From the NCBI RefSeq assembly GCF_000966265.1, contig NZ_LANF01000011.1:1-64000 (forward strand): DNA of 64,000 nt, read 5' to 3'. Position numbers and translations under genes: made by a program. The notes under the pieces were generated by a model, which did not search any database, was not told the DNA's origin, and worked only from the letters and a program-made list of their open reading frames with translations. The DNA comes from Palaeococcus ferrophilus DSM 13482 (GTDB lineage Archaea > Methanobacteriota_B > Thermococci > Thermococcales > Thermococcaceae). Positions 38,998-57,164 of this stretch are shown here, piece by piece. Within the stretch, counting starts at the first letter, position 1; each line of letters starts with the position of its first letter.

Positions 38998-39927
38998 TCA
39001 CTTCAGGGCAAGTCTTGCAACGAAAAATCCGCTCGTTTTGTGCTTGTCTGGGTAAAACCGCCTCGCTTTGGAAATTTCTTCATCCAGTCCAATACCAAAA
39101 GGTGCCCTAAGTGCGGGTTCCCCATAACGTAGTGGGAGAAGCTCAACGTCAAAGTTATCAAGAACCCACTGAACCACGAACTCGTTCTCCTCCGGCTCGA
39201 GGGAGCAGGTGGAGTAAACTAAAACGCCTCCTCTCTTCAGAACGCTCAGACCCTTCTCAAGGAGCTTCATCTGGAGCCCCTGACAGAACTTTACATCGTC
39301 CATAGAGCGGTTGGCCTTCCTCTCGGGGTTCTTGTGAATGGTTCCGGAGCCGGTACAGGGCGCATCGAGGAGGATTTTGTCGAATTCCACCCCAAGCTCG
39401 TCTATGTGGAGGGAAGACCTGTGGAACAGGACCGTGTTTATTACCCCGAGGCGCGAGAGGTTCAACCTCGTCTCCTTCAGCCTCTCCTCACCGACGTCGA
39501 AGGCGTAGATTATCCCTTCGTTTTTCATAAGCTGGGCTATGTAGGAGGTCTTCCCGCCGGGGGCGGCGGCCATGTCGGCGACGACTTCACCGGGCTTTGG
39601 GTCGAGGGCTACGGGCGGATACATAGAGCTCGCTTCCTGGATGTAGAGAAGGCCGGAGAGGTACTCCGGCGTGGAGGTTATCGAGAAGGGCTCCCTCGTG
39701 AGGCAGAAGCCTTCCCTCGTCCAGGGGACACGCCTGAACTGGAAGCCCTTCCTGTTGAGGAGCTTCGTGAGCTTTGGAACCTCTATCTGAAGTGTATTTA
39801 CGCGGAAGCACCTTGGAAGGGGCTTTTCCATCGCCTCCGCTATCGCCAGTGCCCTCTCGCCCCAGAGCCGGTAATAGCGCTCCGCGAAGGTCTTTGAGTA
39901 GCCGAGGCTGAAGAGACGCTCAATCAT
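38998..39927 (-). CDS. RNA cytosine-C5 methyltransferase (NSUN/RsmB family)
   Basis: A 309-residue m5C RNA methyltransferase. The SAM-binding motif is ADMAAAPGGKTSYIAQLM. Motif IV DAPCTGSG and motif VI VYSTCSLEPEENE supply the two catalytic cysteines. Single-domain archaeal members act on tRNA, but the target base cannot be read here. The ATG at 39927 is used; an ATG at 39951 is in frame but has the TATA-like stretch next to it. Confidence 0.9.
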   Translation of the reverse strand: MIERLFSLGYSKTFAERYYRLWGERALAIAEAMEKPLPRCFRVNTLQIEVPKLTKLLNRKGFQFRRVPWTREGFCLTREPFSITSTPEYLSGLLYIQEASSMYPPVALDPKPGEVVADMAAAPGGKTSYIAQLMKNEGIIYAFDVGEERLKETRLNLSRLGVINTVLFHRSSLHIDELGVEFDKILLDAPCTGSGTIHKNPERKANRSMDDVKFCQGLQMKLLEKGLSVLKRGGVLVYSTCSLEPEENEFVVQWVLDNFDVELLPLRYGEPALRAPFGIGLDEEISKARRFYPDKHKTSGFFVARLALK

Positions 39928-48031: not shown

Positions 48032-48086
48032 GTTCCCATCCGGCTTCTCGATTTTTCAACATGCCGGAGCCGGGAGGGGTTTGAAA

Positions 48087-49403
48087 TCATATTGACCTCC
48101 TGCTCTTCTCAAGCCCGTAGAGGTAGAGAGACGCTGGTACGGTGTCTTCCCCTACCTCATCCTTTGAGACGTAGATGGTTGGGAAGGGATAGCTCTTCCT
48201 CTTCACCCTTCCGTACTTGACCTCTATCCCGAAGAAGCCTCCTCTCTTCACGACGAGGTCACACTCCCTGTTTTGATCGTAGTAGAAGCCACCAAATGAG
48301 TGCTTCTCTCTCATTATCGGTTCTTCGCGGGACCATATCACGTGAGTTGCCACCGTGTGCTCCACTAACCACTCTATGTTCTCCTCGACGAACTCAACCG
48401 GATCGCTCCCGAGGTAGAGGGCCAGGGCCGTCGCTATCAAGGAGCTCTGGAAGACCACCTTTTTCTCCTTCCGGTGGGCGTGCCTCTTTCTGTTGATATC
48501 CCAGGCCTCGAGGACGTAGATGAGCCTCGCGCTCTCAAGGGTGTTCAGGTACTCCCTCACCGTCGGATGGGATATTCCAGTCTCACGGGCGAGGGTCACG
48601 TAGTCAACCCTGTTCCCCTTCAGCCTAAAGATAGCTTCAAGAAGCTCCCGAGCTATTTCCTCGCTCTTTCCAGATTTTGCTATCTCCCCGAGGGTGAGCC
48701 TTATTATCTCCTCGTACCTCTTCTCGCTCACCTTTCTTTTCCTCTTGAACTCGAGGACTGCCTCCGGGAAGCCCCCGGTGAGGATGTAGCCGTAGAAAAG
48801 GCCCTCAAGCTCGTCGAACCAGGGAAACAGGTCGTCCGCGGCTGGGGAGTCATAGGTAAAAGCGACCTCCGGGAGCCTGGGGTTGAGGAAGCGCGCGAAC
48901 TCCCTGAAGTTCAAAGGGTTGAAGTAGTACTCGTTCCCCTCTATTCCCCTCCCTGGAAGGAGCTCGCTTTCTCTCTTAAGCTCCACGGGATTTGAGCCGG
49001 TTGCGACTGTGGTTGCCCTCTCCTCCCCGAGGGCCTTGAGAAGGAGCCTCCAGTCCCTGAGGTAGGTTATCTCGTCGAGGAGGACTGTTAGCTCGCCGTG
49101 CCTCCTCCGGAGCTCCTCTATGAAGGAAACGACCTCTTTCCTCGAGAACCTGTCGGCGGGAATGTAAACAATCTTCCTCGGGTCGGTTCCGGGGCGTATG
49201 AGCTCCTCCACGAGGGTCTTGAGGTAGAAGCTCTTTCCTGCCCTTCTGATGCCCCTGAGGAGGATAACGCCTCCTGGATTAACTGTTATTCGCTTCCTAG
49301 GTATTACCTCTCCCGCCCTCGAGAGGTCGGGGTCTTCACTCTCCCAGCCTTCCCCCTTCCACCAGGGGTTGTAGCGGACGAGCCTCACAATCTTGACTGC
49401 CAT
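48087..49403 (-). CDS. AAA ATPase with DUF4143-type C-terminus
   Basis: A 438-residue ATPase. Walker A is RGIRRAGKSF near residues 50-59, Walker B VLLDEITYL near 108-116, and an arginine/sensor region ATGSNPVELKRE follows. The middle has a winged-helix-like segment (VDYVTLARETGISHPTVREYLNTLESARLIYVLEAW shortened here), and the C-terminal nuclease-like fold ends with ECDLVVKRGGFFGIEVKYG. The ATG at 49403 is about 26 bases below a TATA box and adjoins the first of four dyads, so the gene is probably leaderless and self-regulated. The true function is unknown. Confidence 0.85.
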   Translation of the reverse strand: MAVKIVRLVRYNPWWKGEGWESEDPDLSRAGEVIPRKRITVNPGGVILLRGIRRAGKSFYLKTLVEELIRPGTDPRKIVYIPADRFSRKEVVSFIEELRRRHGELTVLLDEITYLRDWRLLLKALGEERATTVATGSNPVELKRESELLPGRGIEGNEYYFNPLNFREFARFLNPRLPEVAFTYDSPAADDLFPWFDELEGLFYGYILTGGFPEAVLEFKRKRKVSEKRYEEIIRLTLGEIAKSGKSEEIARELLEAIFRLKGNRVDYVTLARETGISHPTVREYLNTLESARLIYVLEAWDINRKRHAHRKEKKVVFQSSLIATALALYLGSDPVEFVEENIEWLVEHTVATHVIWSREEPIMREKHSFGGFYYDQNRECDLVVKRGGFFGIEVKYGRVKRKSYPFPTIYVSKDEVGEDTVPASLYLYGLEKSRRSI

Positions 49404-49404
49404 G

Positions 49405-49520
49405 TGTGAAAGTATGCTTTCACAGTTTATAAGATTTGTGAAAGTCCACTTTCATAAATCGGCCTATTTATGAAAACCCACTTTCACAGATCACAGCTTT
49501 TATGAAAGTCCGCTTTCATA
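49405..49520 (-). promoter_or_regulatory. Promoter with four phased dyad operators
   Basis: Four 20-base dyads, each of an 8-base arm, 4-base gap and 8-base arm, lie at 49405-49424, 49437-49456, 49469-49488 and 49501-49520. The consensus is T(G/A)TGAAAG-N4-CTTTCA(C/T)A; the first copy has perfect arms, and the others differ at one to two positions. Copies start exactly 32 bases apart, about three helical turns. On the minus strand a TATA box CTTATAAAC lies at about 49426-49434, between copies one and two. Copy one sits between TATA and the ATPase start. Confidence 0.8.
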
Positions 49521-49552: not shown

Positions 49553-50353
49553 TCAGACCTTCCGGAGCTTGCCTATTCCCTCCCACCTCTCCTCCCTCAC
49601 AAGCTCCAGGGCGTAGGCGTAGATGCCGAGCTTCAGAAGATTCTCCGGCGTGGGGTCTTTCCTTGAGAGCTCTTTAACGGCGGAGGAGAGCTTCTGGAGG
49701 GCCTTCTCCTTGGCCTTCTTGGAGTAGTCGGCGAACTCAAGGGCCTGGAGGATGGAGAGGACTTCGAGGAGAGCTTCCGTAGGGAGTTCAAGGGTTTCTC
49801 CAGCAGGGGCTTTCTTTTTCCCTCTGGTCTTTGCTTTCTTCCCACTTATTTCGCTGTAAACCTGCCGTAGCTCCCCTATGTCCTGCTCTGTTAGGATTCC
49901 CGCCTCTACTAGGGCACGGTCTACGTCCGCTCGTTCAAACGCTTGTAGCGTCTCTGCGGGCATATTAAATGCACCCCTGTGAACCTTCTCAGTCACCTTT
50001 TTTACAGTGCGCACTGCCTTTATCAGGCGCTTTCTTTCCTCCTCGCTCAATGGCCTGCCTCTCACGTCCTCTATATGTGATGCTATGCGGTTTGCTATAA
50101 CCTCGTCGTCTGTGTTGAGTATCTGATCGAAGGTTGCGTGCGGATCGTCCACGAGGTATGCTATTTCCCTAGCAACACGCATTCCCACTTCTGGGCTGTG
50201 CTTTTTTGCCATCTCTGCCGCAAGGGGCATCATGAGTTCCGTGAAGAGAATGATTGCAGGGGCGTGCGGGTTATCTGCCTTTCTGTGTGGCCAATACAGG
50301 TCATCAGTATGGGGGGGTATTCGCCTTCCCTCGTTTTCTTTATTTTTTTGCAT
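49553..50353 (-). CDS. Unknown island protein, paralogue of the 51469 gene
   Basis: A 266-residue, mostly helical protein. The last 70 residues (EVLSILQALEFADYSKKAKE and KDPTPENLLKLGIYAYALEL) match the end of the gene at 51469, and the middle (DQILNTDDEVIANRIA) also matches. A lysine-rich linker (about residues 170-190) separates the two parts. I recognise no enzyme motif. The ATG at 50353 is 14 bases inside the preceding small gene, at an A7 run (50343-50349); losing one A would fuse the two. Confidence 0.65.
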   Translation of the reverse strand: MQKNKENEGRRIPPHTDDLYWPHRKADNPHAPAIILFTELMMPLAAEMAKKHSPEVGMRVAREIAYLVDDPHATFDQILNTDDEVIANRIASHIEDVRGRPLSEEERKRLIKAVRTVKKVTEKVHRGAFNMPAETLQAFERADVDRALVEAGILTEQDIGELRQVYSEISGKKAKTRGKKKAPAGETLELPTEALLEVLSILQALEFADYSKKAKEKALQKLSSAVKELSRKDPTPENLLKLGIYAYALELVREERWEGIGKLRKV

Positions 50354-50636: not shown

Positions 50637-50810
50637 ATGGCCGAGGCGACCAGGGGCAAGGCCCTCAAGCTCTACGAGAGGATGTTCGAACGGGAGATGG
50701 AGATTTTGAAACTCATCGAGGAGAAGAAAAGGGAAATAAAGCCCGGAATGCTGGGAAAGGGGAGCTTTGAGGAGTTCAAGAAGTACAAGCTCGAGGTGTA
50801 CGAAGGGTGA
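50637..50810 (+). CDS. Small antitoxin-like protein of a PIN toxin pair
   Basis: A 57-residue, highly charged helical protein (MAEATRGKALKLYERMFERE at the start). GGTGAGAGA precedes the ATG. It ends at 50810, where the stop codon overlaps the start of the PIN gene (GTGATG). Size, charge and coupling are those of a VapB-type antitoxin, but it has no recognisable DNA-binding motif. A 13-base dyad AGGTTAATAACCT (50595-50607) lies in its promoter region. Confidence 0.7.
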   Translation: MAEATRGKALKLYERMFEREMEILKLIEEKKREIKPGMLGKGSFEEFKKYKLEVYEG

Positions 50811-51259
50811 TGTTCCTCGACTCAAGCGTCCTCTACAACTACCTCGTCGAGACAGAACTAACGAAAGAAGCCGTCAAACTTGTAGACTCTGATGAAGTAA
50901 AAATAGTCTCCGACACCGTCATCGATGAGCTTTTCTACGTGCTCCTGAGGAGAAGTGCCCAGAAGGAGTATGGTGTTTCATCTGCGTGGGGCCTCAAGAA
51001 GCTCCTGAGAAAGAACGAGAGCTTTAGAAAAATCTCCCTTGATGTAATCTCGACCGTTCTTAGCCTCATAGAGGCAAAGGGGATAATCATCGTTCCGGAC
51101 TCAAGGGACTGGCTCACCATAGGAACCCTCGTTCATGACTACTCCCTTCTTCCCCACGACGCGAGGATCCTCGCGACGGCCCTCGAGAACAACTGCACCA
51201 GGCTTGCGACCTTCGACGAAGACTCTAGGGACGTGGACATCATAGAGATCGTTCCGTGA
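50810..51259 (+). CDS. PIN-domain toxin (VapC-like)
   Basis: A 149-residue PIN-domain ribonuclease. Acidic active-site residues are seen at LDSS (aspartate 3 or 4), in VIDELFY, and in the pair PHDARILATALE and TFDEDSRD near the C-terminus. VapC toxins cleave RNA unless bound by their antitoxin. It is read through from the small gene upstream with a TGATG overlap, so the two are one operon. Confidence 0.88.
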   Translation: MFLDSSVLYNYLVETELTKEAVKLVDSDEVKIVSDTVIDELFYVLLRRSAQKEYGVSSAWGLKKLLRKNESFRKISLDVISTVLSLIEAKGIIIVPDSRDWLTIGTLVHDYSLLPHDARILATALENNCTRLATFDEDSRDVDIIEIVP

Positions 51260-51468: not shown

Positions 51469-52011
51469 CTAAAGCCCCTCGATTTCTTTCATCCTCTCCA
51501 GCTCTCCCCTCTTGATTATTTCGATCGCGAAGGCGTAGAGGCCGAGCTTTAGAAGGTTCTCGGGCGTTAGCTTCTCGGCGGAGACTTCTCTTATCCTTGC
51601 GGAGAGCCTCTCGATGGCCTTTCTTTTTGCCTCCTCAGAAAAGCCCGCAAATTCGAGGCCGTTGAGGATGGAGAGGACTTCGACGTTTACGTTGGGGTCG
51701 AGGGACGGTGAGGTTTTTCTTTCATCGTTGTGTTCTGCTACCTTTTCCTCTTCTCTCAGATCTTCCTTCAGTTTTTCTGCAAGTTCTTCTATTGCCATGT
51801 ATAGCTTTGGGTTAAGTGGTTTGATATCTCGTTCTACATCCGGTATGCCCGAAATTTGCATTATCTCGTCATAGAATGATGGATCCTCAGGGTAAGCATC
51901 CGCAATTTTCTTAATGTACGGGATATACTCTTTTATCCTCTGCTTTATTTCCTCCACACTCACTTTTTGCTCCGTACTGCTAGCAATTTTTGTTGCAATG
52001 GTAGTGAGCAC
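51469..52011 (-). CDS. Unknown island protein, paralogue of the 49553 gene (no proper start)
   Basis: A 180-residue open frame from a GTG at 52011 that lacks a ribosome binding site. Its end (EVLSILNGLEFAGFSEEAKR and LTPENLLKLGLYAFAIEI) matches the gene at 49553. Its frame stays open upstream to 52185 without any start codon, and this upstream part (ITLDDIINSEDV) also matches the paralogue. The real gene therefore extends further and is broken at the A7 run at 52177-52183. See the adjoining pseudogene entry. Confidence 0.6.
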   Translation of the reverse strand: MLTTIATKIASSTEQKVSVEEIKQRIKEYIPYIKKIADAYPEDPSFYDEIMQISGIPDVERDIKPLNPKLYMAIEELAEKLKEDLREEEKVAEHNDERKTSPSLDPNVNVEVLSILNGLEFAGFSEEAKRKAIERLSARIREVSAEKLTPENLLKLGLYAFAIEIIKRGELERMKEIEGL

Positions 52012-54042: not shown

Positions 54043-55296
54043 TTAGGGAGGAACGTGAGTGAACCTCTTCCCATTTAAGTCAACCTTCACGACGGACTTG
54101 GGCTTCATCACGTTCAACTCTCCTCCGGGTTCATCGGAGAGCAAATCATCACGCTCAACCCCGCTTAGGGCGACCCCAAGTCCCCGCACCAAAACGTTGA
54201 ACGCACCAACAAACTGCCTATCTGCCTTAAACCCACAGTTAGCACACTCCACCAGCCCGTTTCGGGACTCCAACCTACTCCCACACACCGGGCAGGTGGA
54301 CGAAGTGAAAGCGGGATTAACAAACTCAATCGGAACACGATAAGAAAGCTTTCCAACAATTTTCTTCCAAGTGGCACGGGAGAGCCTTCTATTAAACTTC
54401 CTCGAACCGTTCTGGAGCATTTTGAACTTGTCCAAATCCTCGAAGACGAAAACCGTATCTGGAAACTCCCCCGAAAGCTGGACTGCAAGCTTGTTCAAAT
54501 AATCCTCAATCCTGTTCCTTCTCCTCATCCAGTATTTCTTAAGGAGAATTCCAATCCTCTTCGGGGCTTTCCGCTGAACGCTCTTTAGCATATCAATAAT
54601 TCTGTCGTAGGTCTCGGCAATCCTGTGTAGCTCGCTCAAGTCCACTCTAATCCAGCCTTTTTCAGGGTGAAAGATGTCGAGGCTCGTCAGGTTGCTGTCA
54701 ATGCCGATTTTGATTCTTCCAGAGAACTCGACTTCCTTTGAGAAGGTTAGCAGAACGTCTTGCTCTCTGATTATCAGCTCTCCAACCTTCCAGTCCTTGA
54801 TTCTCTCATAGAACCACTCCTTTGAGAAGTCCAGCTCAAGGTATTCTTCTCTCGGCTTGATGGTTACTCTTATCTTCGAACCTTCGACTTTCATTAGTGT
54901 TGTTTTAACCCTCGCGAACTTCCGCTTAACGATTGGCTTCGCTCTTTTTCTTTTTCCCTTGAGGTAGTTCTGTCTCCAGCTTTTGAGGACTGAATAAGCG
55001 GTCTTTATTGCAGAATCAACGTAGTGCTTGGCGAAAGGCCACTCTCGAAGGAGTTCGTTCCTCAGTTCCCGCTTGAACTCGTTTGTTTGTGGAAAATAAG
55101 GGATTATGCGGGTTGTCTCATAGTAGCTGTAATTTTTTCTTCCGACAGAATACCTGTGCTTGACCTTCTTCTCTCTCCAAGTTGTGTTATCCCATATTTC
55201 ATCAATTGCCCTCTGGAGTAGTCTTTGGTATTCTTTGAGGAACAAATCAATGTTCCAGTTGTGGGGCATTCTGTATGTGAGAACGACTTTAGTCAT
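54043..55296 (-). CDS. tnpB: TnpB, RNA-guided nuclease of the IS607 element
   Basis: A 417-residue TnpB. RuvC-like motifs are [13 protein letters not shown] (first aspartate), [11 protein letters not shown] (glutamate) and the C-terminal [12 protein letters not shown]. The zinc ribbon is [21 protein letters not shown]. The third motif has DRQ where many TnpB proteins have DRD, so activity needs checking. TnpB proteins use a guide RNA made from the element's end near their own 3' end; here that would be close to 54000-54060. Confidence 0.9.
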
Positions 55297-55918
55297 TCTC
55301 GACCTCCTCTATGAGTTTTTTCACGCCTTCCTTGAGCTTTTTGTATTTGTGGGAGCGCATTCCGTAGAGCTTTCCAGCGAAGTGCGATATTATGGTTATT
55401 AAGTCTTCAATGAGTTCCTCTCGTGGGGATTTTTCTTTGTCGTTGATAATGATTATCTCTGCACCGTTCTCCTTGAAGAAGAATTCGATAGTTTTGAAAC
55501 CAAAGCGGGTGAGCCTGTCGGGATAAGTGACGATGACTTTTGAGACTTCTCCCTTTGCGACGAGTTCGAGGAGTTTGCGGTAGTTCTTTCTGTTCTCGTT
55601 CAATCCTGAGCCGATGTCTTTGAGGATTTTGACCTGCCAACCACGTTCTTTTGCGTATTGCTCGATGGCTTCAACCTGTCTTTCCAAGTCGTCTTTTTGG
55701 GTGTGGCTTGAGACTCTTGCGTAGCCAATGATTAGTCCGTTTTCCTCGCTTATGCCGAGAAGCCTTTTTATTTCGCTTTCTGGTATTCTTCGTCTTCCGC
55801 CGGGTGTCCTAATGGTTTTGATTTTTCCCTCTTTGTCCCATTTCTGGATTGTTTTTGGGTGGACGCCGAGAATTTCGCTCGCTTGTTTAACCGTGTAGAG
55901 CTTCTCTTTCACTACCAT
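55289..55918 (-). CDS. tnpA: IS607 serine recombinase TnpA
   Basis: A 209-residue IS607 transposase. An N-terminal MerR-like helix-turn-helix ([19 protein letters not shown]) is followed by the resolvase domain. Its catalytic serine lies in [17 protein letters not shown]. The ATG at 55918 starts MVVKEKLY; an earlier start at 55936 is possible. The end overlaps tnpB by 8 bases. Confidence 0.92.
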
Positions 55919-56036
55919 ACACTCACAATTAATCACAAAAATATTTAAAGTTTTCCGTTAAGAGGAACAGTTAAACAAGGCGTTTGAGATGATAGCCATA
56001 CCCACGGCTCAAAAAAGTGTAAAAAGGGAAGAAACC

Positions 56037-56984
<948 letters not shown>

Positions 56985-57164
56985 GCGCATCACCGTCTAA
57001 AGCTTGCCATAGGTTTTAATAACCATTTCGCCGGCATAAAACATGAAATGGCGAATTTTTTCGAATGTATCCCGCATTCAACTTTCCAAACATAAAGCTA
57101 ATCCTGCGAAAGGGTTTACAACAAAGCTAATAAGTTTCCACCGCATCTTCCTCCGGGGGTTCGC

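Follow-up and report, generated by a model that had tools for sequence, protein, structure and literature searches.

The window analysed here (the whole stretch of 64,000 nucleotides, positions 1 to 64,000 of contig NZ_LANF01000011.1 of Palaeococcus ferrophilus DSM 13482) contains a gene for an AAA_14-DUF4143 ATPase, preceded by four copies of the dyad TRTGAAAG-N4-CTTTCAYA, each consisting of eight-base arms around four centre bases (8-4-8). The gene and its promoter are made up as follows.

48087..49403, minus strand: ATPase with AAA_14, winged-helix and DUF4143 (PD-(D/E)XK-type) parts, 438 amino acids; matches the PADLOC candidate PDC-S01
49405..49424, minus strand: dyad 1, at -21 to -2 relative to the ATG, separating the TATA box from the start codon
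49426..49433, minus strand: TATA box CTTATAAA, flanked by dyads 1 and 2; kept in 15 orthologues
49437..49456, minus strand: dyad 2, at -53 to -34, with 3 bp between its end and the TATA box; covers the expected transcription factor B (TFB) recognition element
49469..49488, minus strand: dyad 3, -85 to -66, TATGAAAA-CCCA-CTTTCACA, one base off type
49501..49520, minus strand: dyad 4, -117 to -98

The dyads follow one another in exact 32-bp steps, with 0, 0, 1 and 0 mismatches to the pattern, and stand where the initial annotation of this DNA had placed them, the first copy between the TATA box and the ATPase start codon. Read along the coding strand of the ATPase gene, the order is dyad 4, dyad 3, dyad 2, TATA box, dyad 1, ATG. 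The centre of the TATA box lies ~27 bp 5' of the ATG, a distance which, taken with the usual spacing of archaeal promoters, leads one to expect a leaderless or nearly leaderless transcript; by the same spacing, dyad 1 would be expected to overlie the initiation region of the ATPase gene.

Chance as the origin of the array is ruled out by counts in the shuffled window and in the whole genome. (Shuffled sequence yields a mean of 0.5 matches when up to 3 mismatches are allowed; the real four have at most 1 mismatch each.) A scan of the 2.2-Mb genome finds no match at up to 2 mismatches beyond the four array dyads, and its 15 further matches all have exactly 3 mismatches; since the reversed control pattern yields 13, these are attributable to chance. 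A regulon of a general or host transcription factor was likewise considered and set aside, there being no further sites with up to 2 mismatches at other promoters of the same genome. The anatomy can be read with considerable confidence as that of a true, conserved operator array.

The ATPase scores above the family cut-offs for AAA_14 (PF13173, 71.5 bits) and DUF4143 (PF13635, 61.7 bits), matches the PADLOC PDC-S01 model with an E-value of 2.5e-30, and matches six more PDC-S01 models as well; it is a candidate phage-defence gene of the PDC-S01 type. Over 81 aligned rows, G51, R53, G56, K57, D110, E111, D382 and V395 are invariant, and the ECD..IEVK motif is present in the Thermococcaceae orthologues; judged from these sequences, the Walker motifs and the PD-(D/E)XK-type residues are conserved. 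An AlphaFold2 model (mean predicted local distance difference test score 88, predicted template-modelling score 0.89) places an AAA+ domain first, then a winged helix and a C-terminal mixed domain. The winged-helix-like segment already suspected in the initial annotation is a high-confidence prediction in this model at residues 248-302 (helices 248-261, 268-275 and 279-291, then a strand at 295-302), and its predicted recognition helix, 279-291, starts HPTVREY. The Csa3/CasR winged helix gives weak matches to the ATPase. A sequence search of the PDB with the window protein found no relative; the best PDB fold matches of the model include Cdc6/Orc1 on origin DNA and RuvB, which likewise have a DNA-binding winged helix after the AAA+ domain, but at template-modelling scores (normalized to the query) of 0.33-0.34 and without a nuclease domain. 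The dyads of the window, moreover, belong to a promoter, and no sign of an origin function is seen.

The array in orthologues, paralogues and distant relatives

Among 94 Thermococcaceae genomes surveyed there are 15 intact orthologues of the ATPase gene (the window's own and 14 at 72-91% identity to the window protein), together with a pseudogene at the same search threshold (G003) and remnants in G096 and G006. Examination of the relatives' genes, suggested at the outset as a check on the array, finds dyads in a fixed register to the start codon at all 15 intact genes. There are three to five dyads per gene (two are visible at one gene that lies at a contig end). The first two stand at -21 and -53 from the ATG throughout, with the TATA box between them in every case, and the third at -85 wherever the sequence reaches that far. 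Alignment of the orthologues gives 1.78-1.91 bits per position for the arms, against 0.64-1.00 for the four centre bases, 0.84-0.86 for spacers outside the TATA box and 0.29 for the upstream flank. Dyad 1 is the most conserved, with 2 mismatches over its 15 copies.

Paralogous AAA_14-DUF4143 ATPases, ~21-34% identical to the window protein, have dyads of other types: TTGGTAAT-N3-ATTACCAA, TGAGAA...TTCTCA, TTGATACT...AGTATCAA, TTTGCAGT...ACTGCAAA and others, according to subfamily. A statistic that scores two similar palindromes 30-36 bp apart was applied to 74 paralogues and, as controls, to 632 promoters of the same loci (those that bear arrays being left out and start codons picked automatically). 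The median score is 24.5 for paralogues and 13 for controls, whose maximum is 22; 49 of the 74 paralogues lie above the maximum of all controls (Mann-Whitney p ~1.5e-33). Above the 99th percentile of the controls there are 51 paralogues, with spacings of 34 bp (36 genes), 33 bp (11) and 35 bp (4), and in 40 of these a TATA-like stretch lies between the dyads. The equation of the 32-bp period with about three helical turns, made in the initial annotation, thus holds for the subfamily of the window ATPase but does not extend to paralogues with their 33-35 bp; the exact phase is particular to each protein subfamily. In a separate comparison, whose control set was contaminated by arrays that lack the ATPase, no DUF234 ATPase exceeds the controls' 99th percentile. 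From these promoter sequences the dyad layout seems to be a trait of the AAA_14-DUF4143 family, for much of the family in Thermococcaceae.

Orthologues in three Thermoplasmatota metagenome-assembled genomes (47-49% identical) have dyads at positions among -117, -85, -53 and -21, with arms TGTGATAR, TATGACA or TTAGGCAC; that is, the 32-bp positions are kept and the letters are changed. The recognition helix varies alongside the dyad letters (SHPTVREY, HHNTVREY, HHNTVHNY, HHNTVIEY): SHPTVREY goes with TGTGAAAG, HHNTVREY with TGTGATAR and HHNTVIEY with TTAGGCAC. A frameshifted Aciduliprofundum copy (59%) retains the TATGAAA type, and in a class-wide Thermoplasmata sample the paired-dyad signal is present, though weaker (median 20 versus 17, p 3.5e-5). 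Eight plasmid-borne relatives were also inspected, anecdotally: a Lactobacillus gene has two dyads, a Methanosphaera gene (L313) has three repeat copies with a 32-bp period before its start codon, and two alphaproteobacterial genes, from Rhizobium and Roseivivax (L316, L318), have ~22-bp direct repeats in that place.

Arrays at the ornithine carbamoyltransferase-methylase locus

The two-dyad pattern is present in 36 of the 94 genomes and its reversed control in none. About 24 genomes hold the array without the ATPase, between two core genes, those for ornithine carbamoyltransferase and an NSUN-type RNA methylase, and typically directly 5' of the methylase promoter (both names come from the sequences of the proteins and not from a family-library match). 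In a large Thermococcus group, most genomes with the ATPase have it between array and methylase; many genomes have the same gene pair without an array. The junction CACAAACGAAGAACCTTTTAAACC is common to solo arrays and TCAATATGATTTTAAACC is found in most ATPase genomes; G093 retains an arrangement that has 480 additional bases. Where the ATPase stands at another locus (G012, G016, G115, G116), the array accompanies it and not the methylase.

Dyads have on average 0.53 mismatches where the ATPase is present, 1.07 in solo arrays and 2.4 in genomes with a pseudogene (Mann-Whitney p 0.006 for the difference in dyad quality, a test that ignores kinship of the genomes). Mapped on the methylase tree, presence of the ATPase requires 13 changes for 13 carriers and is fully scattered, which implies very frequent gain or loss of the gene. 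Most simply, solo arrays would be what is left of an ATPase locus after loss or exchange of the gene, in some cases recently; relics of this kind are expected to be of lower average quality. The dyads of G065 (L102), which lacks the ATPase, are identical to those of G093 (L101), which has it, and the left flanks of the two are almost the same as far as the end of dyad 2, a pattern that an exchange of alleles by recombination at the array would leave.

Three further features relate the window to this locus.

56040..56993, minus strand: ornithine carbamoyltransferase, whose gene flanks the array on its other side in relatives
48042..48089, minus strand: apparent remnant of the promoter and start of an NSUN-type RNA-methylase gene, directly after the ATPase stop codon (junctions compared by eye)
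39010-39927, in the window: intact native methylase

A genome of the same genus (G001) has hypF near its methylase. Since the window has a methylase remnant behind the ATPase and an intact methylase elsewhere, and hypF lies near the methylase in G001, the block from ornithine carbamoyltransferase to ATPase seems to have been imported or moved; its sequence appears to derive from the carbamoyltransferase-array-ATPase-methylase arrangement of other Thermococcus genomes. G012 also has a methylase fragment behind its ATPase.

In many Thermococcus genomes the carbamoyltransferase-methylase intergenic region (L102-L135; 49405-56040 in the window) is a hot spot for ATPase genes of the AAA_14-DUF4143 and DUF234 (PDC-S27) types. 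In the window, two orphan proteins of 266 and 180 residues (49553-50353 and 51469-52011) have a common C-terminal domain, relatives of which adjoin arrays in several genomes (L110, L111, L113, L117, L121). A 57-residue open reading frame overlaps a PIN-domain gene beside the array (50637-51259), like a toxin-antitoxin pair, and recombinase-like and TnpB-like genes (54043-55936; by sequence an insertion-sequence pair) lie between a DUF234 ATPase gene and that for ornithine carbamoyltransferase.

Proposed binding and regulation

The dyads are probably operators of the ATPase gene, the ATPase binding its own dyads by way of the winged helix and clamping its own promoter. Self-repression had been put forward in the initial annotation as the simplest model, and it is still the best one, considering the dyads of all 15 orthologues and the subfamily-specific letters of the paralogues. 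The ATPase is the likely binder because the genome has no other site at up to 2 mismatches, because the dyads accompany the ATPase to other loci, and because their letters change with the protein; we infer further that the effect is repression and the role defence. Winged helices bind dyads of such kind, and attribution of binding to this segment comes from knowledge of the family and a few telling cases, not from statistical proof. Each 8-4-8 dyad would hold one dimer of the winged-helix domain. Those on dyads 1 and 2 would bracket the TATA box and block TATA-binding protein and TFB, or RNA polymerase, and dyads 3 and 4, on the same face of the DNA, would add cooperativity. The ATPase-nuclease, which is probably costly and probably serves defence, would then be expressed at a low, self-limiting level, with release when the ATPase is titrated or altered by a signal.

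Some of the evidence weighs against autoregulation through the winged helix. Dyad distance tracks protein distance in all domains, not in the winged helix alone. What the winged helix adds beyond the other domains is weak (partial Mantel r 0.07, p 0.08, 60 genes), as is the signal of the recognition helix (r 0.095, p 0.04, 60 genes), and a Mantel test over 17 subfamily representatives finds no extra winged-helix signal. The paired-dyad scores of 25 of the 74 paralogues do not exceed the control maximum. Finally, several near-perfect solo arrays (G085, G080) are in genomes without any orthologue. The persistence of such arrays would also fit control of the ATPase gene by a separate, host-encoded transcription factor that binds the dyads, as would single similar dyads 5' of a Tes-like radical-SAM gene and of a winged-helix gene in some genomes. 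This is nevertheless quite improbable: the window's genome has no second site at up to 2 mismatches, and the same geometry with different letters in paralogues would call for a different dedicated factor for each ATPase subfamily. (The single dyads, of TATGAAAG-N4-CTTTCATA type, lie 5' of the radical-SAM gene in three genomes without an ATPase orthologue, at position 1501 of L033, L040 and L045; at L058:1501-1520, in a genome that lacks the array, a perfect TATGAAAG-TCTA-CTTTCATA immediately precedes a winged-helix-like gene, MGAKEDVYKK....)

It is less improbable, though still unlikely, that the ATPase binds the dyads to activate, or acts as a concentration switch like Ss-LrpB, instead of simply repressing. 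Dyad 2, directly 5' of the TATA box, occupies the place of archaeal Lrp-type activators, and in Ss-LrpB of Sulfolobus the autoregulation, positive at first, becomes negative as binding proceeds cooperatively (PMC2995911); yet it is dyad 1, between TATA box and ATG, that is the most conserved, and protein bound there should block polymerase. The array might, instead, be an ATPase-independent element of the carbamoyltransferase-methylase intergenic region (serving methylase control, or as a recombination or landing site) alongside which the ATPase was merely inserted. The ~24 solo arrays with their common junction to the methylase promoter, the scattering of the ATPase on the methylase tree, and the gathering of other ATPase genes in this region all speak for such an element, but it is very unlikely, because the same gene pair lacks the array in many genomes, solo arrays are more degenerate, the array stays with the relocated ATPase in the four genomes named above, and paralogues at other loci share the promoter layout.

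Related systems and significance

Binding sites of Lrp-type regulators are spaced by two or three helical turns along a single face of the DNA (PMC2995911), as the 32-bp dyads are here, and autoregulation, proposed for the ATPase, is the other likeness to Ss-LrpB. However, Ss-LrpB is small, belongs to the Lrp type and has other targets, whereas the putative binder here is a 438-residue AAA+ ATPase with a nuclease-type domain, and the dyad site of the window is found only at the ATPase's own gene. With MDR1 of Archaeoglobus and LrpA of Pyrococcus, occupancy near the start site blocks recruitment of RNA polymerase (PMC2995911); both are dedicated transcription factors and neither is an ATPase-nuclease. 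A 2026 account describes PDC-S01 as an ATPase joined to a domain of PD-(D/E)XK type, a fusion also present in the window protein, which matches the PDC-S01 models; it ranks PDC-S01 fourth by frequency among the defence candidates of prokaryotes and states that, like most PDCs, it awaits validation (PMC12988326). A literature search, thin on subscription journals, found no account of regulation of PDC-S01/DUF4143 genes by such sites; DUF4143 is named in a single paper, on Thermus thermophilus. In that bacterium, RNA of TT_P0211, which has the same AAA_14/DUF4143 domain pair, is 6.6-fold up with plasmid in the Argonaute-positive strain only (PMC4406477); this gene is bacterial, and its regulation is left unexplained in that source.

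A further-reaching proposal, put forward tentatively and as possible rather than probable, is that in a very large family of candidate defence ATPase-nucleases the effector could serve as its own sensor and repressor. An AAA+ oligomer would rest on a phased operator array at its own promoter until invading DNA or a viral product titrates or remodels it, whereupon it would be released and its gene turned on; each subfamily would have drifted to a private operator code. If this is true, private codes would let many ATPases coexist in one genome without cross-talk. Under the operator rule each gene names its own likely binding site, which would ease tests of binding, induction and orthogonality; the dyads would predict which ATPases cross-talk, and hyperthermophile genetics may gain from them a collection of private repressor-operator pairs.
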